DNA of 57,201 nucleotides from an uncultured SAR86 cluster bacterium (GTDB taxonomy: Bacteria; Pseudomonadota; Gammaproteobacteria; Magnimaribacterales; Magnimaribacteraceae), in the NCBI GenBank assembly GCA_902532015.1, contig CACAGI010000008.1:1-57201 (forward strand). The letters are read 5' to 3'. Position numbers and translations under genes: made by a program. Positions 36,362 to 53,807 of this stretch are shown here, in pieces; the stretch's first letter is position 1; every line of letters begins with the position of its first letter. The notes under the pieces are model-generated. The model was not told the DNA's origin, ran no database searches, and was given only the letters and a program-made list of their open reading frames with translations.

Positions 36362-37369
36362 TTGAATAAGAAACAAATCCTTGTTACAGGTGGAACTGGT
36401 TATTTAGGATCCCACATCTGCTTAGAATTGCTTGCTAATGATTATGAGCTTTTAGTAATTGACAACCTAGTCAATTCGAAGATCTCTACGATTAATTTTA
36501 TTGAAGATATCTCTTTAAAGAAATTTAAGTTTTATCAAATTGATATAAGAGATAACAAAGCAATAAAAGAAGTTTTTTCAAAGAATAACATATCTGCCGT
36601 AGTGCACCTTGCCGCGCTTAAATCAATAAGTGAGTCCTTAATAGATCCTTATGAATATTATGACGTTAACGTAAGTGGGTTAATAACTCTTTTAAGGGCG
36701 ATGGAAAATCATGGAGTAAAGAATCTCATTTTTAGTTCAAGTGCAGTAGTCTATGGACGGCAAGCAATTCAACCTATCACTGAACAAGCTAGTCTATGTC
36801 CTGAGAACCCTTATGCTTTTACAAAATCAATTGGTGAGGAGATTATAAGTTCTCTCGTAAAAGAGAAAAAACTAATAGCTGGGGTATTAAGATATTTTAA
36901 CCCTGCCGGGTCTCATGAATCTGGTCTTATTGGGGATAAGCCTAATAAAGTACAAGGAAATGTGATTCCTAAAATATTAGATGTAATTCTAGGTAACGAA
37001 AAAGTTTTTAAAGTATATGGCTCAGATTATGAAACCATTGATGGAACAGGAGTAAGAGATTACATTCATGTAAAAGACCTGTCCAGGGCTCATATTTTAA
37101 GTTTACAAAAGATTTTAAATGATAAGAAAAATCATACTCTTAATATAGGAACTGGAAAGGGGTATTCAGTTCTAGATTTGATAAAAGCTTTTGAAGCGGT
37201 TTTAGGAGAAAAGATACCTCATGTATTTGAAGAAAGAAGAGAAGGGGATGTTGCAGAGTGCTTTACAGAGACTTCATTAGCTAGAGATGTTATTGGTTTT
37301 CAAGCAGATAAGGATATTAATGACATGGTCAGTAGTGCATTAAACTTTGCAAAGAACTATTCTGCGTAA
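36362..37369 (+). CDS. galE: UDP-glucose 4-epimerase
   Basis: Extended SDR of 335 residues interconverting UDP-Glc and UDP-Gal (or the N-acetyl forms). The NAD motif TGGTGYLGSHICLELL spans about 9-24, SSSAVVYGRQ lies near 120-130, the catalytic YxxxK is YAFTK near 148-152, and YFNPAGSHESG, typical of GalE, lies near 176-186. The start is TTG at 36362, which gives the normal beginning MNKKQILVTGG. A 122-base non-coding gap with no tRNA precedes it. It opens the polysaccharide region and may supply galactose residues. Confidence 0.9.
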   Translation: MNKKQILVTGGTGYLGSHICLELLANDYELLVIDNLVNSKISTINFIEDISLKKFKFYQIDIRDNKAIKEVFSKNNISAVVHLAALKSISESLIDPYEYYDVNVSGLITLLRAMENHGVKNLIFSSSAVVYGRQAIQPITEQASLCPENPYAFTKSIGEEIISSLVKEKKLIAGVLRYFNPAGSHESGLIGDKPNKVQGNVIPKILDVILGNEKVFKVYGSDYETIDGTGVRDYIHVKDLSRAHILSLQKILNDKKNHTLNIGTGKGYSVLDLIKAFEAVLGEKIPHVFEERREGDVAECFTETSLARDVIGFQADKDINDMVSSALNFAKNYSA

Positions 37370-37390
37370 TATTGAATTATAATCAAGCCG

Positions 37391-38065
37391 ATGAGTGAAA
37401 TAGTCAAACCTCTAGTTAGTATAATAATACCTGTATTTAATGCAGAAAATCAGATTGCTCGATGTCTTCGGTCTATTCTGAATCAGTCATTTGCGAAAGA
37501 GAAATATGAAATTATTGTTATAGATGATGCTAGTGAAGATAACAGTAAATTAATATGGTCATCTTTAAGTCATGAAAGCAATGAGATAGTTTGCATAGAG
37601 AATAAAGAAAACAAGGGACTACCATATTGTCTAAATAGAGGCATAGAGCAGTCTCAGGGCAAATATTTTTTAAGACTTGATTCCGATGACTACGTGAACG
37701 AATTTTATATAGAAGCTTTATATAACTTTCTTGTAATGAATGAGCATTATGATGCAGTTGCCTGTGATTATATAGAAGTTGATGATTCAGAGAATTTTTT
37801 AAAAAGAAGGGATTGTTTTAAAAAACCTTTGGGCTGTGGAATAATCTTTAGGAAAAAGCATTGGTTAGAGATAGGAAAATATGACGAAGATTTTAAGCTT
37901 CATGAAGAAATAGATTTTATAATTCGATTCAAATCTAAATACTCTCTAGGAAGATTAGAAATGCCACTTTATAGATATAGAAAACATTCAGACAATATCA
38001 CTAATAATTTAGAAAATGTTAATAAATATAGTAAAAAATTAAAAGAAAAGCATAAGAATCTATGA
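37391..38065 (+). CDS. Family 2 glycosyltransferase
   Basis: GT-A fold transferase of 224 residues. The N-terminal SIIIPVFNAENQIARCLRSI motif (about 10-29), the nucleotide-binding IDDAS, and the DXD-like LDSDDY near residue 100 are visible, and a late CGIIFRKKHW. It is short, with little C-terminal domain. Donor and acceptor are unknown. It overlaps the NeuB-family gene by 4 bases (ATGA), suggesting a shared pathway. Confidence 0.85.
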   Translation: MSEIVKPLVSIIIPVFNAENQIARCLRSILNQSFAKEKYEIIVIDDASEDNSKLIWSSLSHESNEIVCIENKENKGLPYCLNRGIEQSQGKYFLRLDSDDYVNEFYIEALYNFLVMNEHYDAVACDYIEVDDSENFLKRRDCFKKPLGCGIIFRKKHWLEIGKYDEDFKLHEEIDFIIRFKSKYSLGRLEMPLYRYRKHSDNITNNLENVNKYSKKLKEKHKNL

Positions 38066-39126
38066 ACAGTTTAGCCATCAGACTAGGAAATAAAGAAATT
38101 TCATACAAAAGTATGCCTTATATTATCGCTGAAATAGGCGTTAATCATGAAGGCTCTAAAGAAAAAGCCTTTGAATTAATTAAACTAGCTAAAGAAGGAG
38201 GAGCAGATGCAGCAAAATTCCAAACATATAAGGCGGAAAAGATTGCTTCTAAAAACTCACCTTCTTACTGGGATCTATCTAAAGAGTCTACAGAGAGTCA
38301 ATTTCAGTTATTCAAGAAATATGACTCTTTTGAAGAGAAAGATTACTGCGATTTAGCGGATTATTGTAAAGAAATGAAAATAGATTTTCTTTCTACGCCT
38401 TTTGACCATGATGCTGTTGATTTTTTATACGAATTAATGCCTTTTTATAAGATTGCATCTGCAGACATAACAAATGTACCTTTATTGAGAAAAATAGGTA
38501 GCAAAGAGAAGCCGGTTGTTCTATCCACAGGAGCTTCTAATTATGAAGAAATAGACTTCTGTCTAAATTTATTATCAAAATTTAATATACCTTCCATATC
38601 ACTTCTTCATTGCATCCTAAATTACCCAACTCCTGATAAATATGCACATCTAGATATGATATGTTCTTTAAAAGAAAAGTATCCTCAAAATTTGATAGGC
38701 TATTCTGATCACACACTACCTGATGCACACATGACATCCTTAACAACTGCTTATAATTTTGGAGCTTGTATTATTGAAAAACATTTCACAGATGATAAAA
38801 GCTTGCCTGGTAATGACCACTACCATGCTATGGACAAATTAGATTTGATTATTTTGAAAGATCAATTCAAGAAGATCTCTCAGTTAAAGGGTAATAAGAT
38901 AATTAAAGAGCCTATCAAATCCGAAGATATTTCTAGAAAGAATGCCAGGAGGAGTATCGTAGCTGTTAGAGACTTAAAGAAAGGTGAAAAGTTAACTGAA
39001 GAAAATATTACCTATAAAAGACCTTGCTTTGGAATACCTACCTCTGATTGGGATGATGCTTTGGGGAAAGCATTAAATAAAGATATTACAGAAGATAGCT
39101 TTATTAATTGGGAAGATTTAAATTAA
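38062..39126 (+). CDS. NeuB-family N-acylneuraminate-type synthase
   Basis: Condenses PEP with a hexosamine-like sugar to make a nonulosonic acid (sialic, legionaminic or pseudaminic type). The 354 residues have the TIM-barrel signature IIAEIGVNHEGS (about 21-32), AKFQTYKAEKIAS (about 52-64), KIASADITNVPLL, GYSDHT, and IEKHFTDD with PGNDHYHAM (metal site). A C-terminal SAF/antifreeze-like domain (about 290-350, RRSIVAVRDLKKGEKLT) follows. No NeuA or NeuC/LegG-type partner is in the window, so the exact sugar is unresolved. Confidence 0.87.
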   Translation: MNSLAIRLGNKEISYKSMPYIIAEIGVNHEGSKEKAFELIKLAKEGGADAAKFQTYKAEKIASKNSPSYWDLSKESTESQFQLFKKYDSFEEKDYCDLADYCKEMKIDFLSTPFDHDAVDFLYELMPFYKIASADITNVPLLRKIGSKEKPVVLSTGASNYEEIDFCLNLLSKFNIPSISLLHCILNYPTPDKYAHLDMICSLKEKYPQNLIGYSDHTLPDAHMTSLTTAYNFGACIIEKHFTDDKSLPGNDHYHAMDKLDLIILKDQFKKISQLKGNKIIKEPIKSEDISRKNARRSIVAVRDLKKGEKLTEENITYKRPCFGIPTSDWDDALGKALNKDITEDSFINWEDLN

Positions 39127-39136
39127 AATAAGTTAT

Positions 39137-39949
39137 ATGACTTACAGCAAAATATCACAATGGTATGACCTTTCTGAAGACGTTATTGTTTTAACAGGAG
39201 CAGCTGGCAAGCTGGGTAAACACTACGCAAATGCTTTTTTGGAAGCTAATGCCAAAGTTGCTCTTTTCGATGCTAGCCAAGAAGCCTTAGATGAATATGT
39301 ATCAAATCTTGAAGAGTCTTATCGCCAGAATGTTTTATCTATAGTGTGTGATATTTCTAATAAGGAAGAAGTTATAGATTCATTTGATAAGGTAAAGAAC
39401 ACTTTTGGAAATTGTTCTATTCTCATTAATAATGCAGCTGCGGTCCAAGTTACTTTTCTTGAAGGGAGTTTAGTTGATTTTGAAGATTTCCCAATAGAAG
39501 TTTGGAAATCAAATTTAGATGTAAATTTAACAGGCGCTTTTTTATGTTGTCAGGAGGCTGGTAAACATATGTTAGAAAGAGAGAAGGGAGTAATCTTAAA
39601 TATAAGTTCTATCTACGGAGTTGTTGGTTGTGATCAAAGGATTTATGGAGATTCTGGTTTAAATTCCAACATAGCATATGCTGCAACAAAAAGTGGCTTA
39701 ATTAATTTTACCCGTTATTTAGCTTCTTATTGGCAAGGTAAGAATATCCGAGTAAATTGTTTGTCACCCGGAGGAGTTTATAATAATCAACCTGATGAAT
39801 TTTTTAATAATTATACTGAAAAGACTATGCTGAAGAAGATGTCTGAACCAGAGGATCTAGTAAGTGCTATTTTATATCTAGTCTCCGATGCTTCTGGAAT
39901 GGTCACAGGAATAAATCACTTAGTGGATGGCGGCTATACAGCCTGGTAG
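39137..39949 (+). CDS. Short-chain dehydrogenase/reductase of the NeuB gene group
   Basis: Classical SDR of 270 residues: TGAAGKLGKHYANAF near 20-34, INNAAAVQ near 98-105, the catalytic serine in ISSIYGVVG, and YAATK for YxxxK. The motif is TGxxGxLG with leucine, where most have GIG; this variant is common in SDRs near sugar-acid genes. It follows the NeuB-family gene after 10 bases and may reduce or oxidise a nonulosonic-acid intermediate, which is inferred from context only. It ends 16 bases before tRNA-Cys. Confidence 0.85.
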   Translation: MTYSKISQWYDLSEDVIVLTGAAGKLGKHYANAFLEANAKVALFDASQEALDEYVSNLEESYRQNVLSIVCDISNKEEVIDSFDKVKNTFGNCSILINNAAAVQVTFLEGSLVDFEDFPIEVWKSNLDVNLTGAFLCCQEAGKHMLEREKGVILNISSIYGVVGCDQRIYGDSGLNSNIAYAATKSGLINFTRYLASYWQGKNIRVNCLSPGGVYNNQPDEFFNNYTEKTMLKKMSEPEDLVSAILYLVSDASGMVTGINHLVDGGYTAW

Positions 39950-39965
39950 AGTGATGTAGGTATTT

Positions 39966-40039
39966 GGCTGAGTAGCAAAGTGGTTATGCAGCGGATTGCA
40001 AATCCGTCTACGCCGGTTCGATTCCGACCTCAGCCTCCA
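39966..40039 (+). tRNA. tRNA-Cys (anticodon GCA)
   Basis: Cloverleaf with acceptor GGCTGAG paired to CTCAGCC, discriminator T and encoded CCA (40037-40039). Anticodon loop TTGCAAA, anticodon GCA at 39998-40000, and a T-arm containing GGTTCGATTCC. In E. coli this tRNA also pairs with tRNA-Leu(UAA) downstream of pgsA. Confidence 0.95.
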
Positions 40040-40064
40040 CTAGAAACGTATAATGTTTGAATTT

Positions 40065-40151
40065 GCCCGGGTGGTGGAATTGGTAGACACAAGGGACTTA
40101 AAATCCCTCGAGGGAAACTTCGTGACGGTTCGAGTCCGTCCCCGGGCACCA
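40065..40151 (+). tRNA. tRNA-Leu (anticodon UAA)
   Basis: An 87-base class II tRNA with a long variable arm. Acceptor GCCCGGG pairs with CCCGGGC, discriminator A, encoded CCA (40149-40151). Anticodon stem AGGGA/TCCCT with loop CTTAAAA gives anticodon TAA at 40099-40101. A T-arm GGTTCGAGTCC is present. It lies 25 bases after tRNA-Cys. No duplicated 3' end (integration scar) was noticed elsewhere in the window. Confidence 0.95.
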
Positions 40152-40187
40152 ATCTAATAAAGAATTGTCTATAATATTCAATATATT

Positions 40188-41510
40188 ATGAAAATAACTA
40201 TAGTCGGAACAGGATATGTTGGCCTAGTCTCTGGTGCTTGCCTTTCTGATTTTGGTCATCAAGTAGTCTGTGTAGATAAAAATCTAGAAAGGATTCAAGA
40301 CTTAAAAAAAGGAATAATTCCTATATATGAACCAGGACTAGATATTCTAGTAAAGAAAAATGTAAAATCTAGACGCCTTACATTTACAGATAATATTGAC
40401 GACTCATTAAGAAGCTCTGAAGTTGTATTTATAGCTGTTGGAACTCCTTCTAGAAGGGGAGATGGGGGTGCTGATTTATCTTATGTACATGAAGCTGCTC
40501 AAGAGATTGCAAAAATATCAGATAACTATATTTTATTTGTTACAAAATCAACTGTTCCAGTGGGTTCAAATAGGGATTTAATAAAAGTTATAGAGAAAGC
40601 TAATCCAGAGTTAAAATTCGATGTTGCCTCCAACCCTGAATTTCTTAGAGAAGGATCTGCAATTGATGACTTTATGAGACCGGATAGAGTGGTTGTAGGA
40701 GTTGAGAGCGAAAGGGCTAAAGAGCTAATGCTAGAAGTATATAAACCTCTATATTTAAGAGACTTTCCTATAATGTTCACAAGCCTAGAATCAGCTGAGA
40801 CTATCAAATATGCCTCTAATGCTTTTTTAGCCACTAAGATAACTTTTATAAATGAAATAGCACAATTATGTGAGAATTCCGGTGCCGATATAAAGGAGGT
40901 GTCAAAGGGAATGGGTTTGGATGAAAGAATAGGCAATAAGTTTCTGCATGCTGGTCCTGGTTATGGCGGTTCTTGCTTTCCTAAAGATACTAAAGCATTA
41001 GTTGAAACTGGAAAAGAATTTAAATCGGAGATGGAACTTACTAAGACAGTAATAAAGGTAAATGAAAACATAAAAAAAAGGATGGTAAATAAGATTGTCT
41101 CTTCATTGGAAGACTCAGTTAAAGATAAAAAAATTACTATTTTGGGTGTAACATTTAAACCAAACACAGACGACATGAGAGAGGCTCCCTCAACAGTGAT
41201 TTTACCCGCCCTAATTAAAAAAGGTGCTATTTTAAAGATTGTAGATCCTCAAGGGTATAGGGAAGGAAATGAAATATTTGGTAAGGATGTAGAGTGGCTA
41301 TCAGATATCTACGAAGCAGTAAAAGATTCAGAACTTATTGTGATTTTAACCGAATGGAACCAATTTAGAGCTCTAAACTTACTTAAAATTTCTAAATTGA
41401 TGAAGAAGCCTCGTTTAGTTGATTTAAGAAATATTTATAGTGAAGAAGAAGCTTTATCGAATGGTTTCATTTTTTATGACTCAGTGGGAAGAAGAAACAA
41501 TAAAAATTAA
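40188..41510 (+). CDS. ugd: UDP-glucose 6-dehydrogenase
   Basis: Oxidises UDP-glucose to UDP-glucuronate with NAD+. The 440 residues have a Rossmann motif ITIVGTGYVGLVSGACLSDFG at the start, ASNPEFLREGSAIDDFMRPDR near 147-167, the catalytic cysteine in GPGYGGSCFPKDTKAL near 257-272, and the FKPNTDDMREAPS substrate motif near 323-335. It is the first gene after the tRNAs. UDP-glucuronate could feed the UDP-glucuronate-type epimerase at the window end. Confidence 0.94.
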   Translation: MKITIVGTGYVGLVSGACLSDFGHQVVCVDKNLERIQDLKKGIIPIYEPGLDILVKKNVKSRRLTFTDNIDDSLRSSEVVFIAVGTPSRRGDGGADLSYVHEAAQEIAKISDNYILFVTKSTVPVGSNRDLIKVIEKANPELKFDVASNPEFLREGSAIDDFMRPDRVVVGVESERAKELMLEVYKPLYLRDFPIMFTSLESAETIKYASNAFLATKITFINEIAQLCENSGADIKEVSKGMGLDERIGNKFLHAGPGYGGSCFPKDTKALVETGKEFKSEMELTKTVIKVNENIKKRMVNKIVSSLEDSVKDKKITILGVTFKPNTDDMREAPSTVILPALIKKGAILKIVDPQGYREGNEIFGKDVEWLSDIYEAVKDSELIVILTEWNQFRALNLLKISKLMKKPRLVDLRNIYSEEEALSNGFIFYDSVGRRNNKN

Positions 41511-41512
41511 AA

Positions 41513-42466
41513 ATGTCGAAAGTTGACTTACATAATTACTTGAAAGTAAACCATTCCGATGAAGGAGTTTTGACCCTTATAGAGGATCAATATCATGATA
41601 ACTTTGGTTACCAGTGGAGCAGATTCAGTAAGCTACAGTTAGACTCATATAACGGTTCAAAAGAATCTGAAAATAGGTTGATAAATCAGAGTGAAATGTC
41701 ACAAGAAGACTTCAAAGGCAAGGTAGTGCTTGAGATAGGAGCTGGCAATGGGAGATTTACAGAAATTTTACTGAAATTTGGAGCGCAAGTAGTTTCAGTT
41801 GACTTTTCATCAGCAATATATTCTAACTATGAAAACCATAAACAATATGCTCAGGAAGGCGATCTTCTTTGTATTAGAGGAAATCTTTTCGACTTACCCA
41901 TAGAGCAGTCAAGCTTTGACATAGTCTTATGCTACGGAGTTATCCAGCATACTGGCAATAATAAACTTGCTTTAGAAACCCTTTCATCTTACGTTAAAGA
42001 TGGAGGACTTATATTGGTTGATATTTATTCGAATAATATTAAACACTATAATCCTTGGATTTACCTTATAAGACCTATTTTCTCTAGACTAGTAAGAACA
42101 AACGAGAAAAGAATGAAATTCGTTGAGAGGTTTGTAGATTTCATGTTCCCTATTCAGGTCAAATTATTAAGTTTTTTAAAAAACAAAAAAGGAGCTTTTA
42201 AATTTTTAAGATATTTTATAAATAGATCTCCAAATAGTGTTTACGGAATCAATTTATACCTTAACGGAAATATATCTTTAGACGATGCAAAAGATTGGTC
42301 AATTTGTGATACTAATGATGCTTGGACGCCGCAACATGACGATCCTGTATCCTTTTCTCAGTGGAAAAAATTAATTATCGCAATTAATAATCAATATAAC
42401 TTCTCAACTGTGGTTATAAAAGATTGTGGACAAGGAAACTGTGCAGTTATGAAGAGTAATAGTTAA
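41513..42466 (+). CDS. SAM-dependent methyltransferase
   Basis: Class I methyltransferase of 317 residues. The SAM loop VLEIGAGNGRFTEILLKFGA is near 73-92, VVSVDFSS follows, and DIVLCYGVIQHTGNNKLAL near 136-154 gives motif IV. A basic, hydrophobic C-terminal region follows with DAWTPQHDDPVSFSQW. Such proteins methylate sugars or other glycan parts in surface-polysaccharide clusters; the substrate is not identifiable. It lies 2 bases after ugd and 14 bases before a membrane-protein gene. Confidence 0.83.
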   Translation: MSKVDLHNYLKVNHSDEGVLTLIEDQYHDNFGYQWSRFSKLQLDSYNGSKESENRLINQSEMSQEDFKGKVVLEIGAGNGRFTEILLKFGAQVVSVDFSSAIYSNYENHKQYAQEGDLLCIRGNLFDLPIEQSSFDIVLCYGVIQHTGNNKLALETLSSYVKDGGLILVDIYSNNIKHYNPWIYLIRPIFSRLVRTNEKRMKFVERFVDFMFPIQVKLLSFLKNKKGAFKFLRYFINRSPNSVYGINLYLNGNISLDDAKDWSICDTNDAWTPQHDDPVSFSQWKKLIIAINNQYNFSTVVIKDCGQGNCAVMKSNS

Positions 42467-45501: not shown

Positions 45502-46200
45502 ATGAATCAAGAATTCAACATAAAAGATCTAAAAGAAATAGATTTAGAAAACATCAAAGCTATTTTTATTGATATAGACGATACTTTATATTCGTATAAA
45601 GAAACTCATCCCTTAGCTATTAAATCTTGCTATAACAAATATATGGAATATTTTGGTAAAGATTCTGAGATCTCTCTCTATGATCAAAACCAATTTGAAA
45701 TACGATATAGAAAGGCTAGAGATGAGGTCACAGATCGCCTTTTTCCTGGAAGTTCTTGTAGATCAAGATTGCTTGCATTCAAAGATATGTTTGAAGAAAT
45801 GCCCGCTTTATCAAGTATATGTGCTTACGAATATGCTTTAGAGTTCGAGGAAATCTATTGGTCTTCATTAATTCAAAATATTGAACCAAATAAGGAAATG
45901 AAAAGTTTTTTTGAATTTTGCCGAAAGCGGATTCCAGAAATAAAAATTTGTGCTATAAGTGATATGCAAACAGCGTATCAAATTAGAAAACTAAGTAAGT
46001 TGGGATATGAAGATTTTTTCTTGATTACTTCAGAAGAAGTAGGAGTAGAAAAACCAAATGCTACAATTTTTAGATATGCCTTGGAAAAATTTAATTTAAA
46101 TGCTGAAGAAGTAATAATGATTGGAGATAATTTAATTAAAGATATTGAAGGGGCATCAAAATTAGGAATAAGATCTTACCTAGTAAATTTAAATGAATAA
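45502..46200 (+). CDS. HAD-superfamily phosphatase
   Basis: 232 residues. Motif I is DIDDT at 24-28 within FIDIDDTLYSYKETH, the cap is alpha-helical (residues about 40-125), motif II/III has AISDMQTA and VEKPNATIFRYAL, and motif IV is GDNLIKDIEGASKLG. It resembles HAD type IA phosphatases such as pyrimidine 5'-nucleotidases. Its stop overlaps the next gene's start by 8 bases. In this run it could dephosphorylate a sugar or polyol phosphate made by the neighbouring kinase or aldolase. That is inference. Confidence 0.82.
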   Translation: MNQEFNIKDLKEIDLENIKAIFIDIDDTLYSYKETHPLAIKSCYNKYMEYFGKDSEISLYDQNQFEIRYRKARDEVTDRLFPGSSCRSRLLAFKDMFEEMPALSSICAYEYALEFEEIYWSSLIQNIEPNKEMKSFFEFCRKRIPEIKICAISDMQTAYQIRKLSKLGYEDFFLITSEEVGVEKPNATIFRYALEKFNLNAEEVIMIGDNLIKDIEGASKLGIRSYLVNLNE

Positions 46201-48274
46201 TAATATTTTAGATTCTAAAAATCTCATAATCTTGGGGTTTGTATTTAAGCTGTTGATTGGCACTCTTTTTGCTTCTTTTGTTCTTAAAGATCTTTTCATT
46301 CCCTTTATAGACTTCTTCGTTACTAATCTTGAAAATCCTTATAGAAATTTTTTAGATGTAAATAGTCCTCAAAATTTTCCTTATCCGACTTTGATGCTTC
46401 TTATATTATCGACTCCTGTATTTTTAGCGGAACTCTTTCTTGACCTTGAAACACTTCCTGTGCAATTAAGCTTTTCTATTTACAGATTGCCCCTATTACT
46501 GGCAGATTTAGGAATACTATTAATATTAAGTTCATGGGTTAGAGCAGAATCACAAAAGAGATTGATTTGGTTATATTGGTTTTCACCAGTCCTTTTTTAT
46601 ATCAGTTATATTCATGGACAGTTAGATGTCATCCCTATATTTCTCTTATTTTTAAGTCTTAATTATTTGTTTAAGCAGAATATTCTTTTATCGGGACTTA
46701 TTCTTGGCCTGGCAATTTCAACTAAAACAATGGTAATCCTCTCTTTGCCATTTATAGTTTTATTGCTTATTTCTAAAGATAATAGTTTTAAAAATACTTC
46801 TATATTTATTTTAAGTTCTGCAATTTGCTTTTTTTTAGTTAACTTGCCTTTCATTTTTGATCCATCTTTTCAAGAGATGGTTTTTTTTAATGAGGAACAA
46901 ACAAGAATTTTTGAATTATCCTTTCTAATAGGGGAGTCGTCCTTCTATTTTATCCCTGCTTGCTTACTATTATTGGCGCTGAGAGGATTTCTTATCAAAA
47001 CCTATAACAGAGATATTTTTATGATGTTTTTAGGTTTTTCATTTGGAATAATCCTTATGTTTATAACACCTATGCAGGGTTGGTACTTTTGGTTTATACC
47101 TTTTCTAACATATTTCTATGCAAAATCTGTAGATAGGTATTTTCTTCTTTTAATGCTTTTGCAATTTGCATATCTATTATATTTCTCTTTGGTTGAGAAT
47201 TCTGATTATCTAAATGTTTTTAGTCTTCTTCAATCTGATACAAGTATTTATTTATTATTAACAGAAGTAGGCCTTAATCCTGAAGCTTATAAAGGGATAG
47301 CATTTACACTCTTACAAGTTTCTCTTGGTGTAAATTGTTTTTTTATATATAGAAGAGGAATAGACAGTTACAGTAAACATAAAATAACTTCAGCTCCCTA
47401 CCTTGTAGGGGTGGGTGGAGATTCTGGAGCAGGTAAGACGACGATATCTGAGTCTCTGTCAAATATTTTTACTTCGATGAATTCCTTAGTTATACGAGGG
47501 GATGATATGCATAAGTGGCAAAGAGGACATGAAAAATGGGAAGAATTTACTCACTTGGATCCAAAAGCTAATTTATTACATCAAGAAATAGATATGTTGA
47601 ATAGTTTGAAAGCGGGCAAAGGTATTTTAAGAAAAATGTACAATCATGATGATGGTACTTTTTCTAATGATCTTAACCTGGCTCCAAATAACCTTATCAT
47701 TTTTGAAGGATTACATGCATTTTATCTAAGCAGGCAAAGGCAAATTTATGACGTGAAACTATTTATACAGCCCGATAAAGACCTTTCTGATCATTGGAAA
47801 ATAACTAGAGATATTGAAAAAAGAGGTTATTCAAAAGAAAAGGTTTTAGATTTGTTATCTGACAGGGAGGAGGATTCAAAGAATTATGTAAGGTCTCAAG
47901 CTAAGTACGCAGATATATTGATATCACCTAAGCCTATCAACCCTATAAATAATATAGGCGATAATCAAGAAAATATAGATATCAAATATCATCTATTAAT
48001 GCCTAATTCAATTTTCATTGAAAATTTAGTTGATAATCTTGATGGAATTGAAGATCTAAATGTATCACACAATTATTTAGATGAAGATAAGCAGGAAATA
48101 GAAATATTTGGAAATGCATCAAAAGAAGAGATTTCTGAAGTTGCAAACTCCAACATAACTAGCTTAGTAGATCTGGGCGTTGATTATCCTGACTGGCCCT
48201 CATCAAGTTTAGGCGCGCTATTGGTTATATTAACTTTCTTTATTTTTGAAGATGCAAATTATGGAAAAGAATAA
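46193..48274 (+). CDS. Fusion of GT-C-like membrane glycosyltransferase and uridine-kinase-family kinase
   Basis: 693 residues. Residues about 10-395 form a polytopic membrane domain with roughly ten helices and a loop reading YIHGQLDVIP, similar to GT-C (mannosyltransferase-type) enzymes. A P-loop kinase domain follows at about 400-620: Walker A GGDSGAGKTT at 408-417 (K415), RGDDMHKWQRGHEKW, NLLHQEID and FEGLHAFY, as in uridine kinase/phosphoribulokinase. Another hydrophobic helix lies near 670-688. The reading frame is continuous, so this is not a sequencing join. It overlaps the HAD gene by 8 bases and the aldolase by up to 29. Substrates are unknown. Confidence 0.78.
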   Translation: MNNNILDSKNLIILGFVFKLLIGTLFASFVLKDLFIPFIDFFVTNLENPYRNFLDVNSPQNFPYPTLMLLILSTPVFLAELFLDLETLPVQLSFSIYRLPLLLADLGILLILSSWVRAESQKRLIWLYWFSPVLFYISYIHGQLDVIPIFLLFLSLNYLFKQNILLSGLILGLAISTKTMVILSLPFIVLLLISKDNSFKNTSIFILSSAICFFLVNLPFIFDPSFQEMVFFNEEQTRIFELSFLIGESSFYFIPACLLLLALRGFLIKTYNRDIFMMFLGFSFGIILMFITPMQGWYFWFIPFLTYFYAKSVDRYFLLLMLLQFAYLLYFSLVENSDYLNVFSLLQSDTSIYLLLTEVGLNPEAYKGIAFTLLQVSLGVNCFFIYRRGIDSYSKHKITSAPYLVGVGGDSGAGKTTISESLSNIFTSMNSLVIRGDDMHKWQRGHEKWEEFTHLDPKANLLHQEIDMLNSLKAGKGILRKMYNHDDGTFSNDLNLAPNNLIIFEGLHAFYLSRQRQIYDVKLFIQPDKDLSDHWKITRDIEKRGYSKEKVLDLLSDREEDSKNYVRSQAKYADILISPKPINPINNIGDNQENIDIKYHLLMPNSIFIENLVDNLDGIEDLNVSHNYLDEDKQEIEIFGNASKEEISEVANSNITSLVDLGVDYPDWPSSSLGALLVILTFFIFEDANYGKE

Positions 48275-49127
48275 ACATCTTCAAAATTTCTCAAAAGCCT
48301 CTATAGAAATAGGAAAAAAAATATCTTATGTGCAAGGAGGAGGTGGCAACACTTCAGTTAAATTTAATGAATCGCAGATGGCGATAAAGGCTTCGGGAGT
48401 AAAATTAAAAGATATCACTCATGAACAAGGATTCAGCGTCGTAGATTACTCTATGTTAAATCAATATTTAAATAACCCAGACTTAAATGAATCACTTTTT
48501 ACTGAAAAGATACACTCATTTGTTGTTGAAACTGATAATAGACCATCTATCGAAACAGGTTTTCATTCGCTTTTAGGTACATACGTTGTTCATACTCACT
48601 CAGCATATGTCAACGTACTTAACTGCTCTGAAGAGGGGAAAGAAGAGATTAATAAACTATTCCCTGAATTCATTTGGATAAAATATGCTACCCCTGGAAG
48701 AGATATAACATTAGAACTCAAAGAGAATATTCCGACTCCTTTGGCTAAGGAGGGATGTATTTTTCTTCAAAATCATGGACTGATTGTTTGGGCAGATGAT
48801 TCAGAAACAGTTCTTAAAGTACATAATGAAGTCTCAAATATTATAAAAGATAAATTTAACTTAGATGATTTCGTTTTTAATGAGGAAAAAAGTTATATTC
48901 CAAGTTCTAATAAAAAAGAAGTTTTGTTTCCTGACCAGGCTGTTTATACCATGGCAAGCAATGATTTTATTAGTTCATTAGAAGCACAAGAAACAATATG
49001 CTCCTATGATTATATAATTAAAAGTATAGAAAAAATTGGGTTTAAGCCTTCTTTTTTACCAGAAAAAGAAGTTAATAAGCTCCTTGATATGGAAGGTGAA
49101 AAATATCGTCAAAGCCTTATAACATGA
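48252..49127 (+). CDS. Class II aldolase/adducin-family protein
   Basis: About 292 residues from the ATG at 48252. A TTG at 48246 and an ATG at 48261 are alternatives; all lie within the tail of the preceding gene. The fold signature GGGGNTSVK is near 31-39, the metal-site HTHSAYVN near 115-122, and NHGLIVWAD near 178-186. The family includes fuculose- and rhamnulose-1-phosphate aldolases. The long C-terminal part (residues 215-291) is outside the usual fold. Substrate unknown. It overlaps the GDPD-like gene by 4 bases. Confidence 0.8.
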   Translation: MQIMEKNKHLQNFSKASIEIGKKISYVQGGGGNTSVKFNESQMAIKASGVKLKDITHEQGFSVVDYSMLNQYLNNPDLNESLFTEKIHSFVVETDNRPSIETGFHSLLGTYVVHTHSAYVNVLNCSEEGKEEINKLFPEFIWIKYATPGRDITLELKENIPTPLAKEGCIFLQNHGLIVWADDSETVLKVHNEVSNIIKDKFNLDDFVFNEEKSYIPSSNKKEVLFPDQAVYTMASNDFISSLEAQETICSYDYIIKSIEKIGFKPSFLPEKEVNKLLDMEGEKYRQSLIT

Positions 49128-49744
49128 TGAGATTTATCAATCATAGAATAAATACGGTAACAGATTTAGATTCGGTTCCTTTTGAAAATGGAATCGAATT
49201 AGACGTTAGATATCACAATGATGAACTGATACTTCATCATGATCCTTTTCAGCATCACAAAAATAATCCAGAAAAGTTAGATTATTTTTTGGAGAAATGG
49301 AAGCATAACGGTCCTTTGATTATAAATATAAAAACTGAAGGGATAGAAGAAGAATGTATCTCCATGATGGATTCTTATGAAATAAAGAACTGGTTCTTTT
49401 TGGATATGTCTATGCCCTTTTTAGTTAAGTATTCTCTTCTAACGCAAGGTGCAAACCCTATATTATCTCCAAAAAACTTAGCAGTCAGATTCTCTGAATT
49501 TGAACCTTTAGAGTATGCTTTATCTTTTACAGGAAAAGCTGGATGGGTATGGATAGATTGTTTTAATAAACTTCCTTTAACTCATGAAATATATAAACAA
49601 TTAAAGCAATCTGGTTTTAAAATTTGTCTAGTTTCACCAGAATTGCAGGGTCATTCTTTAAAGCGGATTCCTGTATTTAAAGACTTGATACAAGATATGG
49701 AAATTGACGCTATTTGTACAAAGAGACAAGATTTATGGGTTTAA
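49124..49744 (+). CDS. Short glycerophosphodiester phosphodiesterase-like protein
   Basis: 206 residues, below the roughly 250 of GDPD enzymes. Catalytic features seem to remain: HR in FINHRINTV (near 5-8), ExD in GIELDVRYHN (near 23), and HD in LILHHDPFQHH (near 39). The barrel ends with ICTKRQDLW. The HRGxxxxxPENT motif is otherwise lost, so assignment to PI-PLC/GDPD superfamily is tentative. There is no signal peptide, hence a cytosolic role. Translation likely couples to the aldolase (4-base overlap). Confidence 0.65.
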   Translation: MMRFINHRINTVTDLDSVPFENGIELDVRYHNDELILHHDPFQHHKNNPEKLDYFLEKWKHNGPLIINIKTEGIEEECISMMDSYEIKNWFFLDMSMPFLVKYSLLTQGANPILSPKNLAVRFSEFEPLEYALSFTGKAGWVWIDCFNKLPLTHEIYKQLKQSGFKICLVSPELQGHSLKRIPVFKDLIQDMEIDAICTKRQDLWV

Positions 49745-49752
49745 CAGAGGAT

Positions 49753-50541
49753 ATGCAAATTCTCATTCCTATGACCGGCAATGGCTCTCGTTTCGTAAAC
49801 AAAGGCTATAGTCGCTTGAAACCTTTCATAGAAGTTCATGGCAGACCAATTATTGAATGGGTAGTAAAAATGTTTAAGGGAGATGAACATCTTATTAATT
49901 TTATCTGTAGAGAAAGTCATCTGAATGAATTTGATTATCTCGAGAGTGAGTTAATTCGAATCGCTCCAGAGGGAAGAATTATTTCTATAAAGGATTGGGA
50001 AAAAAAAGGCCCTGTTATGGATACTTTGAAGGCAGTCTCATTATTAAATTTGAATGGACCGATTTTAATTAGCTATTGTGATTACTATATGCATTGGAAT
50101 TACAATAAATTTAAGTCTGATTTAAAAGACTTAGATTGTGATGGCTCTATCCCTTGTTATTCAGGCTTTCATCCTCACCTCCTCCCTAAGCAAAATTTAT
50201 ATGGCTCATGCAAGGTCGATAAAGAAGATTATCTAATTCAGATTAAAGAAAAGCATGCTTGGAATGAAGATAAAACTAAAGATTTTAATTCACCAGGTGT
50301 TTTTTATTTTAAAGATGCTTCGATGTTAAAAAAATACTGTAAAGAATTAATACAATCAAATGAACATATAAACGAAGAATTCTATATGAGCCTTCCTTTC
50401 AATTACCTAGTTAGAGATGGTTTGAAGGTCTGGTGCCCTAGTAACATAGATTATTTTTGTCAGTGGGGAACCCCGGAAGATTTAGAAGATTATCTTTTCT
50501 GGATTAATGCTATAGGTAAAATTAAAAAGGCTAGCTTATGA
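49753..50541 (+). CDS. Sugar nucleotidyltransferase-like protein 1
   Basis: About 262 residues from ATG 49753, chosen because an AGAGGA Shine-Dalgarno lies 2 bases upstream of it (49746-49751); longer starts at 49714 or 49735 would overlap the GDPD gene. The nucleotide-binding loop is IPMTGNGSRFVNKGYSRLKP, the usual GxGxRF with an altered first glycine. GPILISYCDYYMHW lies near 100-113 and YFCQWGTPEDLEDY near the C-terminus. Family NTP_transferase. It probably activates a phosphorylated sugar or polyol. The next gene overlaps by 4 bases. Confidence 0.75.
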   Translation: MQILIPMTGNGSRFVNKGYSRLKPFIEVHGRPIIEWVVKMFKGDEHLINFICRESHLNEFDYLESELIRIAPEGRIISIKDWEKKGPVMDTLKAVSLLNLNGPILISYCDYYMHWNYNKFKSDLKDLDCDGSIPCYSGFHPHLLPKQNLYGSCKVDKEDYLIQIKEKHAWNEDKTKDFNSPGVFYFKDASMLKKYCKELIQSNEHINEEFYMSLPFNYLVRDGLKVWCPSNIDYFCQWGTPEDLEDYLFWINAIGKIKKASL

Positions 50542-51344
50542 TTATTTTGATTCCAATGGGAGGCAAAGGCAGTAGGTTCTTGGAGGCTGGCTATACTGAA
50601 AATAAGGCTTGTCTGCTTACTACAGACAGACACTCAGGGGAGAAATTACCAATGATTATTTGTGCCATGAAAGATCTTCCTGGTATTCAAGATAAAGAAA
50701 ATACGATCATATGTATTGATAGAAAGTTTCATGAGGAAAATGGTACTGAAAAAGAAATTTTGAAAAGATTTAAAGATACAATATTCATACATGATAATGT
50801 TTTGTTAGATCAAGCTTATGGCTGTTATTTGGCGAAAGATCATCTCAATAAAGAAGAAGAACTTCTAATCGGAGCTTGTGATAATGGAATAGATATAGAT
50901 TTAGAAGCCTTTGAGAAAGCAAAGCTTGAATCGGACGCGTTAATGATTAGTCATAGTAATGATGAAAACATAGCTCAAAATCCAGAAGCTCATAGTTGGG
51001 CTAAATTAAAAGATGATGGTAAATATTTAATCGAAATTTCTTTAAAAAAAACTGTAAGCGCAACCCCGATGAAAGATCATGCAACAACAGGCATGTTCTG
51101 GTTTAAAAGTGCTAAAACATTTTTAAGCTATTTAGAAGATATGATCCAGTCTAAGGATACTTTAGATGGGAAATATTATGTTGATAAAGTTCTCCAGTAT
51201 TATATCGAAGACCAAAAAAAGGTTAGCTTTTTTGATGTTAAATACATTTGTTGGGGCACTCCGCTTGATTACGAAAACTATGAAAATACAATCTCTTATT
51301 GGACTAATTTTTATAATAACGAAGAATGGACCAAAGAAAGATAG
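50538..51344 (+). CDS. Sugar nucleotidyltransferase-like protein 2
   Basis: 268 residues starting MIILIPMGGKGSRFLEAGY, with the nucleotide-binding glycine-rich loop intact (GGKGSRF). IGACDNGIDID lies near 116-126, and CWGTPLDYENYENTISYW near the C-terminus. It is distantly similar to the preceding NTase in outline, but sequence identity is low by eye. In the first, the lysine-proline position is LKP; here it is NKAC. It may be catalytically different or a partner subunit. Its 3' end overlaps the DPM1-like gene by 19 bases. Confidence 0.72.
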   Translation: MIILIPMGGKGSRFLEAGYTENKACLLTTDRHSGEKLPMIICAMKDLPGIQDKENTIICIDRKFHEENGTEKEILKRFKDTIFIHDNVLLDQAYGCYLAKDHLNKEEELLIGACDNGIDIDLEAFEKAKLESDALMISHSNDENIAQNPEAHSWAKLKDDGKYLIEISLKKTVSATPMKDHATTGMFWFKSAKTFLSYLEDMIQSKDTLDGKYYVDKVLQYYIEDQKKVSFFDVKYICWGTPLDYENYENTISYWTNFYNNEEWTKER

Positions 51345-52069
51345 GCTTATCAGTAGTAATTCCCTGTTTTAATGAAGCAGAAAATATCGCTTTACTTCTT
51401 AAGGAGCTTCAAAAGGTTTTCTTATCTAGTAAATATAATATTGAAGTGATAATTGTTGATGGATGCTCTAGTGATGATACGAATTTAATTTTAAAGGAAG
51501 AGTTTAGAAATTTAGATAAGAATATATTTTCACTTATTCTAATGGAAAGCCAGAATGGATATGGTAATGATATTTTAGAAGGACTTAAAAAAGCCAGATA
51601 TGAATATTTATGTTGGACTCATGCTGATTTACAGACTGATCCTAATGATGTTATCAGAGGTTTAGAAATTATTATTTCTAATATTGGAGATGAGCAATTT
51701 ATAAAAGGTAAAAGAAAATCCAGACCTTTTTTTGACTTACTGCTAACTTACGGAATGCAATTAATTGTTTTTTTCCTTTTAAAAGTCAGACTGAATGATA
51801 TAAATGCTCAACCAAAGGTCTTCCATAGATCTTTTTATGATAAATTCTTAAAAGATCGTTCGCCTAAAGATTTTTCTTTAGATCTATTTGCACTTTATGA
51901 AGCTAAAACAAATAACTATGAAATTATTTCATTTCCTGTGCAGTTTAAAAAAAGAGAATTTGGTGTAGCGAAAGGGGGTGGAGGTTCCCTCATAAATCGA
52001 TGGAACCTTGTGAAGAGAACTTTCAGATATATTTACAGACTAAAGAAAGACCGTTTGAATTCTGTTTAA
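51326..52069 (+). CDS. DPM1-like family 2 glycosyltransferase
   Basis: 247 residues. It begins with LSVVIPCFNEAENIALLLKEL (about 8-27 and onwards), then VDGCSSDDT and the DXD equivalent WTHADLQTDP near 92-101. This resembles dolichol-phosphate mannose synthase-type enzymes, which transfer a sugar to a polyprenyl phosphate carrier. No C-terminal TM anchor is visible, though a hydrophobic patch LLLTYGMQLIVFFLL is at about 132-146. The overlap with the previous NTase gene suggests that the NTase product is its donor. Confidence 0.8.
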   Translation: MDQRKIGLSVVIPCFNEAENIALLLKELQKVFLSSKYNIEVIIVDGCSSDDTNLILKEEFRNLDKNIFSLILMESQNGYGNDILEGLKKARYEYLCWTHADLQTDPNDVIRGLEIIISNIGDEQFIKGKRKSRPFFDLLLTYGMQLIVFFLLKVRLNDINAQPKVFHRSFYDKFLKDRSPKDFSLDLFALYEAKTNNYEIISFPVQFKKREFGVAKGGGGSLINRWNLVKRTFRYIYRLKKDRLNSV

Positions 52070-52091
52070 AACTTTTATTGAATTGGTGAAT

Positions 52092-53807
52092 ATGAATTAC
52101 AGGATTAAATTTAATATTCAAGAAGTTTCTTTAGTTATCTTATTTGCTTTAATAGTTGCATATTGCCTGTCATTCGTTTATCCATATCCGTATTTTTTAG
52201 CTGGTGGATTCTCTGGTGAATCTGCATATGACGGAGAGCCTGATTATTTTGCTAACATTGTTAGTAGTTTTATTAATGGTCATTCTATGGATTTTCTCCA
52301 TCCCGGAATACCCATTGTATTCTTATGTAAGTCTATATTAGTTCTTTTTAAAGACATTTACGGTGTAGAGGAAATTATATTTTCGTCCAGATTTATACTA
52401 ATTTTAATAAACCTTTTTATGGTATACATCGGCTCTAGAATATTACTGAAGCATGAGCTGTACTTCTTTTTTCTAATTTTATGCTTACTATTTGTTTTTC
52501 CAGCCGGTTTTGTATTAGTAGATCATGTATCTCCTAACGGGATACTTTTTGGTATCAGTATTTTGGTCATTGCATTAGGTTATAAATTAGATGAGGATTC
52601 AAAAATATATCTACTACTTTTTACTATTTTTTTAGGACTTGCTGTAGCAATCAAGTTTCCTGCAATAGTTTTAGGTATACCATGTTTTCTGGCCTTATTA
52701 TTAAGTGGTAGTAGCCACCAAAAATTTTCAAAAATACTTATCTTTTCTTTGTTTAGCACCGTTTTAAGCTTTTCTATTTTTACTTGGCCTGTACTCCCTT
52801 TCATTCCGTTTTTTTTGACACATCACGATTATTCTTACGATGACTTTGAGTTTATATTTTCTAATTTCTTTATAAGTTTATCCTTAATAGTTTTATTCAT
52901 AGCCTTGCTAGCCTTTATTGTTACAAGAATAAAAACTATTTATAAGTATAGCTACAAAAGAATATATAAAACCTCATGTTTACTATTTGCTATATTTCTC
53001 TTAATAGCTATTGCAATTAAAGCATGGAGTTCAAATGATTATTTATCCTTTTCCTATTCGCTGAGGAATTACATACCTCTATTTGGAATGTTCATTTTGC
53101 TATTAAATTTTTTCATTCCCAAGATGATTTCTAATCATAGATTTAATCTTCCTATCTTTTTTGTAATATTTTTAGTTATTTTTTCTACAAAACTCTATTT
53201 CAATAATATTTCTGATAAACGAGCTTTAGAAATCGATGAAAGTTTTACTAGCCTATACTCTAGTTATATAGATAAATATGACAATATAGTTCTGTATCCG
53301 GCCGGCTCTTTTGCATCAAAAAATATTTTCCTTGCTTGGTCTGATTATAGATATGGAGACTCGAGATACTTGTTTAGTGATCAAGAAGCTGAATTACCAT
53401 TTGTAATGACAGAGTCTCAAAAGAAAATTAAAGTTTTGAATACAAGAAAATTCGATCTAGACAGCCCAACCGCTAAGACCTCTTATAAGTATTTCAAACA
53501 ATCAGTTGATAATAGATATTTGCACAAAAACCAAAAGGGAGTTGCGCTAAATCAAATTAATCTTCAAATTCCCAAAGAATTTTGTAAAGAAGTTTATGAT
53601 GGTTATATGCCTGGTAACTCATCTTTATTAATTATACCTTTAAGCCTACATTCATACATCTCTGATAATGGATACAAAGATAAAGATCTTGCTGTAAATT
53701 ATGTTAACTCTCTTAATAACCGTCTTAGCAGTGAGTGTAAACTAGACACCAAAATAAGCTCAATTGTCTATGATTCTCAAAAGTTCTATCTTTTATCTAT
53801 TGAATAG
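52092..53807 (+). CDS. Large polytopic membrane protein, GT-C-like
   Basis: About 571 residues from the ATG at 52092; a TTG at 52083 would add three residues. The first ~360 residues form about ten TM helices. Loop 1 after TM1 carries GESAYDGEPDYFANIVS, with acidic residues where GT-C enzymes have a catalytic Asp/Glu. A soluble C-terminal domain follows (about 390-571). GT-C glycosyltransferase using a lipid-linked donor, such as the DPM1-like product, is plausible. No family is certain. Confidence 0.68.
   Translation: MNYRIKFNIQEVSLVILFALIVAYCLSFVYPYPYFLAGGFSGESAYDGEPDYFANIVSSFINGHSMDFLHPGIPIVFLCKSILVLFKDIYGVEEIIFSSRFILILINLFMVYIGSRILLKHELYFFFLILCLLFVFPAGFVLVDHVSPNGILFGISILVIALGYKLDEDSKIYLLLFTIFLGLAVAIKFPAIVLGIPCFLALLLSGSSHQKFSKILIFSLFSTVLSFSIFTWPVLPFIPFFLTHHDYSYDDFEFIFSNFFISLSLIVLFIALLAFIVTRIKTIYKYSYKRIYKTSCLLFAIFLLIAIAIKAWSSNDYLSFSYSLRNYIPLFGMFILLLNFFIPKMISNHRFNLPIFFVIFLVIFSTKLYFNNISDKRALEIDESFTSLYSSYIDKYDNIVLYPAGSFASKNIFLAWSDYRYGDSRYLFSDQEAELPFVMTESQKKIKVLNTRKFDLDSPTAKTSYKYFKQSVDNRYLHKNQKGVALNQINLQIPKEFCKEVYDGYMPGNSSLLIIPLSLHSYISDNGYKDKDLAVNYVNSLNNRLSSECKLDTKISSIVYDSQKFYLLSIE

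Follow-up and report, generated by a model that had tools for sequence, protein, structure and literature searches.

A mobile seven-gene module from a SAR86 bacterium that most likely turns a pentulose phosphate into an activated surface sugar

Introduction

What does a bacterium make with a phosphatase, a kinase, an aldolase, a phosphodiesterase, two nucleotidyltransferases and a polyprenyl-phosphate glycosyltransferase encoded in one overlapping run? The question is raised by positions 45502-52069 of a 57,201-nt stretch of DNA (hereafter the window) from an uncultured SAR86 cluster bacterium (contig CACAGI010000008.1 of assembly GCA_902532015.1, positions 1-57,201), which belongs to a 1.16-Mb SAR86 genome bin. 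An original prediction had read the run as one module that may synthesize an unusual group, activate it and attach it through a polyprenyl carrier, and our analysis supports this view. We conclude that the module most likely uses a common pentulose phosphate to make a rare sugar in activated form, destined for the cell surface. Our best reading of the whole, in which a pentulose phosphate becomes a nucleotide-activated and then a polyprenyl-phosphate-linked sugar, probably a ketofuranose, that is attached by a GT-C glycosyltransferase encoded in the same run, has in our estimate a probability of about 0.5.

Results

Seven overlapping genes form a single, mobile unit

The seven open reading frames (ORFs), all on the + strand, lie head to tail in a single run (aa, amino acids; a double colon marks a fusion):

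45502..46200, +: phosphatase of the HAD family (HAD), 232 aa, with a HAD hydrolase domain
46193..48274, +: GT-C::PRK fusion, 693 aa, with a GT-C part (~aa 1-395) and a phosphoribulokinase (PRK) domain (~aa 399-651)
48246..49127, +: class II (RhaD/FucA-type) aldolase (ALD), 293 aa, with an Aldolase_II domain
49124..49744, +: phosphodiesterase of glycerophosphodiester phosphodiesterase (GDPD) fold, 206 aa, a fold match without a Pfam match
49714..50541, +: nucleotidyltransferase NT1, 275 aa, with a weak NTP_transf_3 match
50538..51344, +: nucleotidyltransferase NT2, 268 aa, a paralogue of NT1
51326..52069, +: DPM1/GtrB-like polyprenyl-phosphate glycosyltransferase (DPM1), 247 aa, with a Glycos_transf_2 domain

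With the starts as called, successive genes overlap by 8, 29, 4, 31, 4 and 19 bases. Two of these overlaps, of 29 and 31 bases, depend on TTG starts and would be smaller if the next ATG were the true start. The ORFs, their domains, a fold model of the GDPD and the fold of NT1 confirmed this overlapping head-to-tail run as predicted.

Homologues of the ALD, GDPD and nucleotidyltransferase genes, whose occurrence without adjacency had been proposed as grounds for rejecting the module, kept their adjacency in SAR86, several alphaproteobacterial families, an E. coli plasmid and phages, and the sole genome in which they are dispersed (G255, where they are spread over three contigs) still has all of them. 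ALD occurs in 8 of 199 SAR86-order genomes and is accompanied by a strong GDPD match in 8/8, against 1 of the 191 genomes without it (G089, >150 bits), a co-occurrence with p ~2e-13 that involves linked genes with one shared history and hence not independent events. All seven genes recur in the order of the window in L013, L014 and L022-L023, with NT2 and DPM1 fused in L023; DPM1 lies upstream of HAD in L019 and L020, L021 is interrupted by a contig end, and in Aureimonas and two Acetobacter species the set is the same but ends with GDPD. A second arrangement (ALD, NT1::NT2, GtrA, DPM1, GDPD, GT-C::PRK, HAD) is found, with local differences, on plasmid p5 of Azospirillum brasilense, in other alphaproteobacteria and in a further class of the phylum, and also in Hirschia baltica. 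It is carried as a complete module by an E. coli IncR plasmid (L051 6022-14984), identical in isolates from human stool and a bullfrog, in 2 of 5,426 complete E. coli genomes; when the E. coli genomes were searched for a chromosomal counterpart, prompted by the xylulose O-antigen of E. coli O95, these two IncR plasmids were the only hits. Distances between copies correlate across the module gene families (Spearman 0.65-0.90; 0.36-0.63 for GDPD). Because numerous genomes from different classes keep the same genes side by side, which is more than chance, we are nearly certain that the seven genes are a real, single unit. The module is a mobile one, present in bacteria, on a plasmid and, in part, in phages.

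The kinase, phosphatase and aldolase point to a pentulose phosphate

The original prediction was right that the module has a kinase, which it named only generically. The domain, which shares the 693-aa protein with a GT87-like GT-C half, is PRK-like, its activity being predicted from sequence. Its closest solved structures are PRKs (130 bits, versus 44 bits for uridine kinases), and it contains a P-loop, a catalytic Asp and a ribulose-5-phosphate (Ru5P) site (DDxH...R, YNH, WKxxRDxxxRG), with the residues for catalysis and Ru5P binding (D437, H440, R444, Y483, H485, K536, R539, D540 and R544) invariant in 20 copies. A PRK in which the Ru5P-site residues are intact points to a pentulose phosphate. 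The catalytic residues D24, D26, K184, D209 and D214 of HAD are invariant in 19 module copies, as are, in 21 copies including those of cyanophages, ALD residues H116, H118 and H177, which we take by analogy with FucA and RhaD to be Zn ligands, and E103, which we take to be the catalytic Glu. Aldolases of this class make and cleave ketose-1-phosphates, and their relative AraD changes stereochemistry. Haloarchaea have an experimentally proven pair of such enzymes, in which an HAD protein takes a phosphate off ribulose bisphosphate (RuBP) and the resulting ribulose-1-phosphate is cleaved by a class II aldolase of the FucA type (PMC9700705). The RuBP 5-phosphatase family is also the best match of the module HAD, albeit with a score far under the family threshold.

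Loci that have the core without PRK and ALD were also informative. L048 (5775-9656) encodes a 1293-aa fusion of a P-loop region, a middle part without assignment, a class II fructose bisphosphate aldolase and a ribulose-phosphate 3-epimerase, adjoining NT::NT, DPM1, GDPD and HAD, and L073, from genome G089, combines the NT/GDPD/DPM1 core with a ribulose-phosphate 3-epimerase (191 bits). In Synechococcus phage S-SKS1 (L056 6004-7431), a more distant nucleotidyltransferase is fused to 3,4-dihydroxy-2-butanone 4-phosphate (DHBP) synthase (PF00926, 219 bits), and the gene adjoins an HAD gene and a transaldolase-family gene; DHBP synthase uses Ru5P. That such core loci bring in other pentulose-phosphate enzymes supports, together with the S-SKS1 fusion, a pentulose-phosphate origin, which we consider likely. 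Within the module region of L108 (5659-8700), genes for a rhamnose isomerase, an ASRT protein and an FGGY kinase occupy the place that PRK and ALD have in the sister genome G736. Although this block resembles a functional substitute, it may be a rhamnose catabolic operon that was inserted there, and we give it little weight.

Phages carry the cytosolic enzymes

Two IMG/VR phage contigs encode GDPD, ALD, both nucleotidyltransferases and a PRK that stands alone (236-257 aa); HAD is present in one of the two, and neither has GT-C, DPM1 or GtrA. In cyanophages S-SM2 and Bellamy, as in most of eight IMG/VR loci, the gene order is NT1::NT2, GT61, ALD, a small HAD (annotated 'phosphoheptose isomerase') and GDPD, and PRK is absent. 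This five-gene cassette lies at L041 12007-16066, L042 12004-16093 and in L083-L090, only NT1::NT2 and GT61 being found in L087, and its ALD and HAD show only distant similarity to their counterparts in the window. The PRK-less cassette, which we counted in favor of the proposed route, occurs in phages of cyanobacteria, hosts that are expected to have a PRK of their own and produce RuBP through the Calvin cycle. From both kinds of phage loci we conclude that the pathway consists of the cytosolic enzymes, with GtrA, DPM1 and GT-C as one means of delivery. A Zn-alcohol dehydrogenase gene lies beside the core in S-SM2, as it does in L073.

Phosphodiesterase, nucleotidyltransferases and delivery proteins

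Sequence profile searches of Pfam, NCBIfam and PDB gave no match for the GDPD. Its predicted model (pLDDT 92) aligned with 2pz0 at Z 17.6 and a root-mean-square deviation of 2.5 over 187 residues, and this fold search against solved GDPDs confirmed the assignment for the modelled TIM-barrel fold. Residues H7, R8, E25, D27, H39 and K70 are invariant among module copies; judging from known GDPDs, H7 and H39 are presumably the catalytic His pair and E25 and D27 the metal-binding acids. Structural neighbours at Z ~13 include phospholipase D (PLD) of the spider-venom type and phosphatidylinositol-specific phospholipase C (PI-PLC), which can act via cyclic phosphates. The fold of NT1 was confirmed (Z 26.3 to 4evw) and resembles HddC-type enzymes, while its paralogue NT2, fused to it in many relatives, has no Pfam match and drew little from NCBIfam or PDB sequence profiles. 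Both carry the signature GxGxR...K and the metal Asp (R26, K36 and D123 in NT1; R13, K23 and D115 in NT2).

For transfer, the original prediction had named the DPM1-like enzyme, which stands, and had missed the GtrA_DPMS flippase that most bacterial relatives encode between HAD and GT-C::PRK. With a GtrB-type GT2 and a GT-C, the window module is Gtr-like, short of a complete Gtr operon. The parts of the module, their conservation as a set, the intact catalytic and PRK substrate-site residues and the association with pentulose-phosphate enzymes come from sequence, fold and comparison.

A proposed route to an activated ketofuranose

From these data we infer the substrates, the order of the third and fourth steps and the identity of the sugar in the following scheme. 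The PRK domain would phosphorylate a pentulose-5-phosphate (ribulose- or xylulose-5-phosphate) at O1, and HAD would then strip the 5-phosphate to give a ketose-1-phosphate; by moving the phosphate from O5 to O1, the two enzymes would leave O5 free for a furanose ring. ALD would build or stereochemically remodel the ketose-1-phosphate via dihydroxyacetone phosphate (DHAP) and an aldehyde, and NT1, GDPD and NT2 would produce an anomerically activated nucleoside diphosphate (NDP)-sugar. GtrB-type enzymes require an anomerically activated donor, which for a ketose is the 2-phosphate. This need, together with the cyclic-phosphate chemistry of the GDPD fold, led us to prefer for the fourth step a sequence in which NT1 would make an NDP-1-ketose, GDPD would cleave it, with a 1,2-cyclic phosphate as intermediate, to leave the phosphate on the anomeric O2, and NT2 would make the NDP-2-ketose. 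The proposal would account for the presence of two nucleotidyltransferases and a GDPD, and we put forward the shift from O1 to the anomeric O2 only tentatively. DPM1 would transfer the sugar to polyprenyl phosphate, a GtrA-type protein would flip the lipid-linked sugar, and the GT-C half of the fusion would join it to a surface glycan. We rate a ketofuranose product at even odds, the likely product being a pentulofuranose such as D-xylulose, the pentulose documented in bacterial polysaccharides, among them those of Devosia, E. coli O95, Yersinia enterocolitica O:10 and Campylobacter jejuni RM1221 (PMC8707391).

A sister module in SAR86, alphaproteobacteria and a Scandinavium plasmid (L074 7253-10377, L075, L110 9019-12088, L111, L112, L113 and L049 9409-16557) comprises a nucleotidyltransferase, a second one, a GDPD and an HAD, with no PRK or aldolase, and a small cupin in the copies examined gene by gene. 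In L074, its HAD resembles beta-phosphoglucomutase and fructose-1-phosphatase types, and the sister module might activate fructose by the same logic, from fructose bisphosphate.

Several points weigh against the proposed route. None of the enzymes reaches its family cut-off; in NCBIfam, the PRK domain scores 185.8 bits against a cut-off of 236 for PRK07429, HAD scores 119.7 bits against 330 for its best match, the RuBP 5-phosphatase family NF053830, and ALD, which is nearest to the RhaD type, falls below the equivalog cut-offs of both RhaD and FucA. With PRK and HAD already predicted to lead to the same ketose-1-phosphate, ALD has no clear place in the route. The window has no GtrA gene, and the only two GtrA domains of the genome lie inside longer ORFs elsewhere. 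The correlated distances among the gene families may partly reflect species history, many of the genomes compared are bins, and among the loci examined the module could be matched to none of the strains known to have a xylulose polysaccharide.

Alternative products

Were the PRK-like kinase to act instead on O1 of an aldopentose-5-phosphate, with HAD removing the O5 phosphate and one nucleotidyltransferase making an NDP-pentofuranose (ribo- or arabinofuranose), the kinase, HAD, nucleotidyltransferase and DPM1 would match the logic of heptose activation, as would the HddC-like NT1; ALD, GDPD and the second nucleotidyltransferase would however have no job although they are kept even in phages, and PRK enzymes use ketoses, so that we regard such a donor as unlikely. 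The ketose itself could be another one if an aldehyde different from glycolaldehyde were the partner of DHAP in the ALD reaction, giving a hexulose, deoxyhexulose or tetrulose derivative, with PRK and HAD supplying or recycling precursors. This would suit the closeness of ALD to the RhaD type and the rhamnose isomerase and FGGY kinase that L108 has in the place of PRK and ALD, unless these are an inserted catabolic operon, but the PRK site residues are fully conserved and the ribulose-phosphate 3-epimerase of two variants (L048 and L073) favors pentuloses, making another ketose improbable.

The short-chain polyol guessed at in the original prediction is not favored either. A phosphodiester or polyol decoration, in which polyols such as pentitol or glycerol derivatives would be activated to NDP-polyols by the nucleotidyltransferases and phosphodiesters would be trimmed by GDPD, accords with the GDPD fold and with the Zn-alcohol dehydrogenases of L073 and S-SM2; we nevertheless judge it quite unlikely, because every copy of the main module that we examined is without a reductase or polyol dehydrogenase, the set contains no TagF-like or phosphotransferase gene, DPM1/GtrB and GtrA go with glycosyl rather than polyol-phosphate transfer, and the kinase is a PRK with its Ru5P site intact. 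That there is no pathway at all, and generic sugar genes have merely gathered in a polysaccharide island, might be suspected of a locus amid rml, NeuB and UDP-sugar dehydrogenase genes, in an island of a type known for gene exchange. We consider this very improbable, as the set stays the same although gene order, fusions and replicon differ, and recurs in phages that lack the glycosyltransferases, and as the strong GDPD match follows ALD in the SAR86 genomes, albeit as a linked gene. We also rejected tetronate catabolism (no OtnK or dehydrogenase), a sialic-acid or rhamnose pathway (those genes are separate in the window) and, for lack of a choline kinase and LicD, a choline system of the LicC type.

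Genomic setting

The module is preceded by rmlD- and rmlA-like genes and followed by a gene for a polytopic protein, a GT4 transferase gene and a UDP-sugar dehydrogenase gene:

52083..53807, +: polytopic protein without a Pfam match, also 3' of DPM1 in L013 and L014

This polytopic protein is an optional SAR86 neighbour and possibly another GT-C. At 36362-42466 of the window, the island also encodes an epimerase, a GT2, a NeuB-type synthase, a short-chain dehydrogenase/reductase, a UDP-sugar dehydrogenase and a methyltransferase, suggesting that a nonulosonic acid may belong to the same glycan. We found nothing notable in DNA repeats flanking the module, and its base composition is unremarkable.

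Discussion

Xylulose and other ketofuranoses are known from bacterial polysaccharides (PMC8707391), and in the open-access literature searched we found no activated xylulose or pentulose donor and no xylulosyltransferase, nor any description of this gene combination or of cyanophage clusters of GDPD and aldolase genes. The module most likely represents a route from a pentulose phosphate to an activated sugar for which that literature yielded no description. Whether it is a first pathway for ketofuranose activation, with NT1, a GDPD shift via a 1,2-cyclic phosphate, NT2 and Gtr delivery, the cytosolic part of which phages carry, we regard as doubtful. If the module does make an activated xylulose or other ketofuranose donor, it would supply the missing biosynthesis and a genetic marker for ketose-bearing glycans, and GDPD enzymes would be used to make, not break, a phosphate ester. 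The module would be a complete surface-sugar pathway that moves among bacteria, a plasmid and phages, and should the sugar prove different, a conserved, unnamed pathway remains all the same.

Among known systems, the module resembles the Gtr (GtrA/GtrB/GtrC) decoration of O-antigens in having a DPM1/GtrB transferase and a GT-C, with GtrA in most relatives, but differs in its own multi-enzyme sugar pathway, in the fusion of GT-C to PRK and in the lack of an adjacent GtrA in the window copy. With the NDP-heptose pathways it shares a kinase, an HAD, a nucleotidyltransferase (NT1 being near HddC and 4evw in fold) and the moving of a phosphate before activation, whereas its PRK-type kinase, aldolase, GDPD and two nucleotidyltransferases set it apart. 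It has HAD and class II aldolase in common with the non-carboxylating pentose bisphosphate pathway of haloarchaea (PMC9700705) and adds a PRK that would make the bisphosphate; in contrast to that pathway, its setting is biosynthetic, with nucleotidyltransferases, GDPD and a lipid carrier, it has no ribose-1,5-bisphosphate isomerase, and the homology lies below NCBIfam cut-offs. The module GDPD, finally, shares the fold and the catalytic His and acid set of the GDPD superfamily (GlpQ, GDPDs and their PLD and PI-PLC relatives), but it has only 206 aa and no Pfam match and is always accompanied by nucleotidyltransferases, and its substrate is probably a metabolite rather than a lipid head group.

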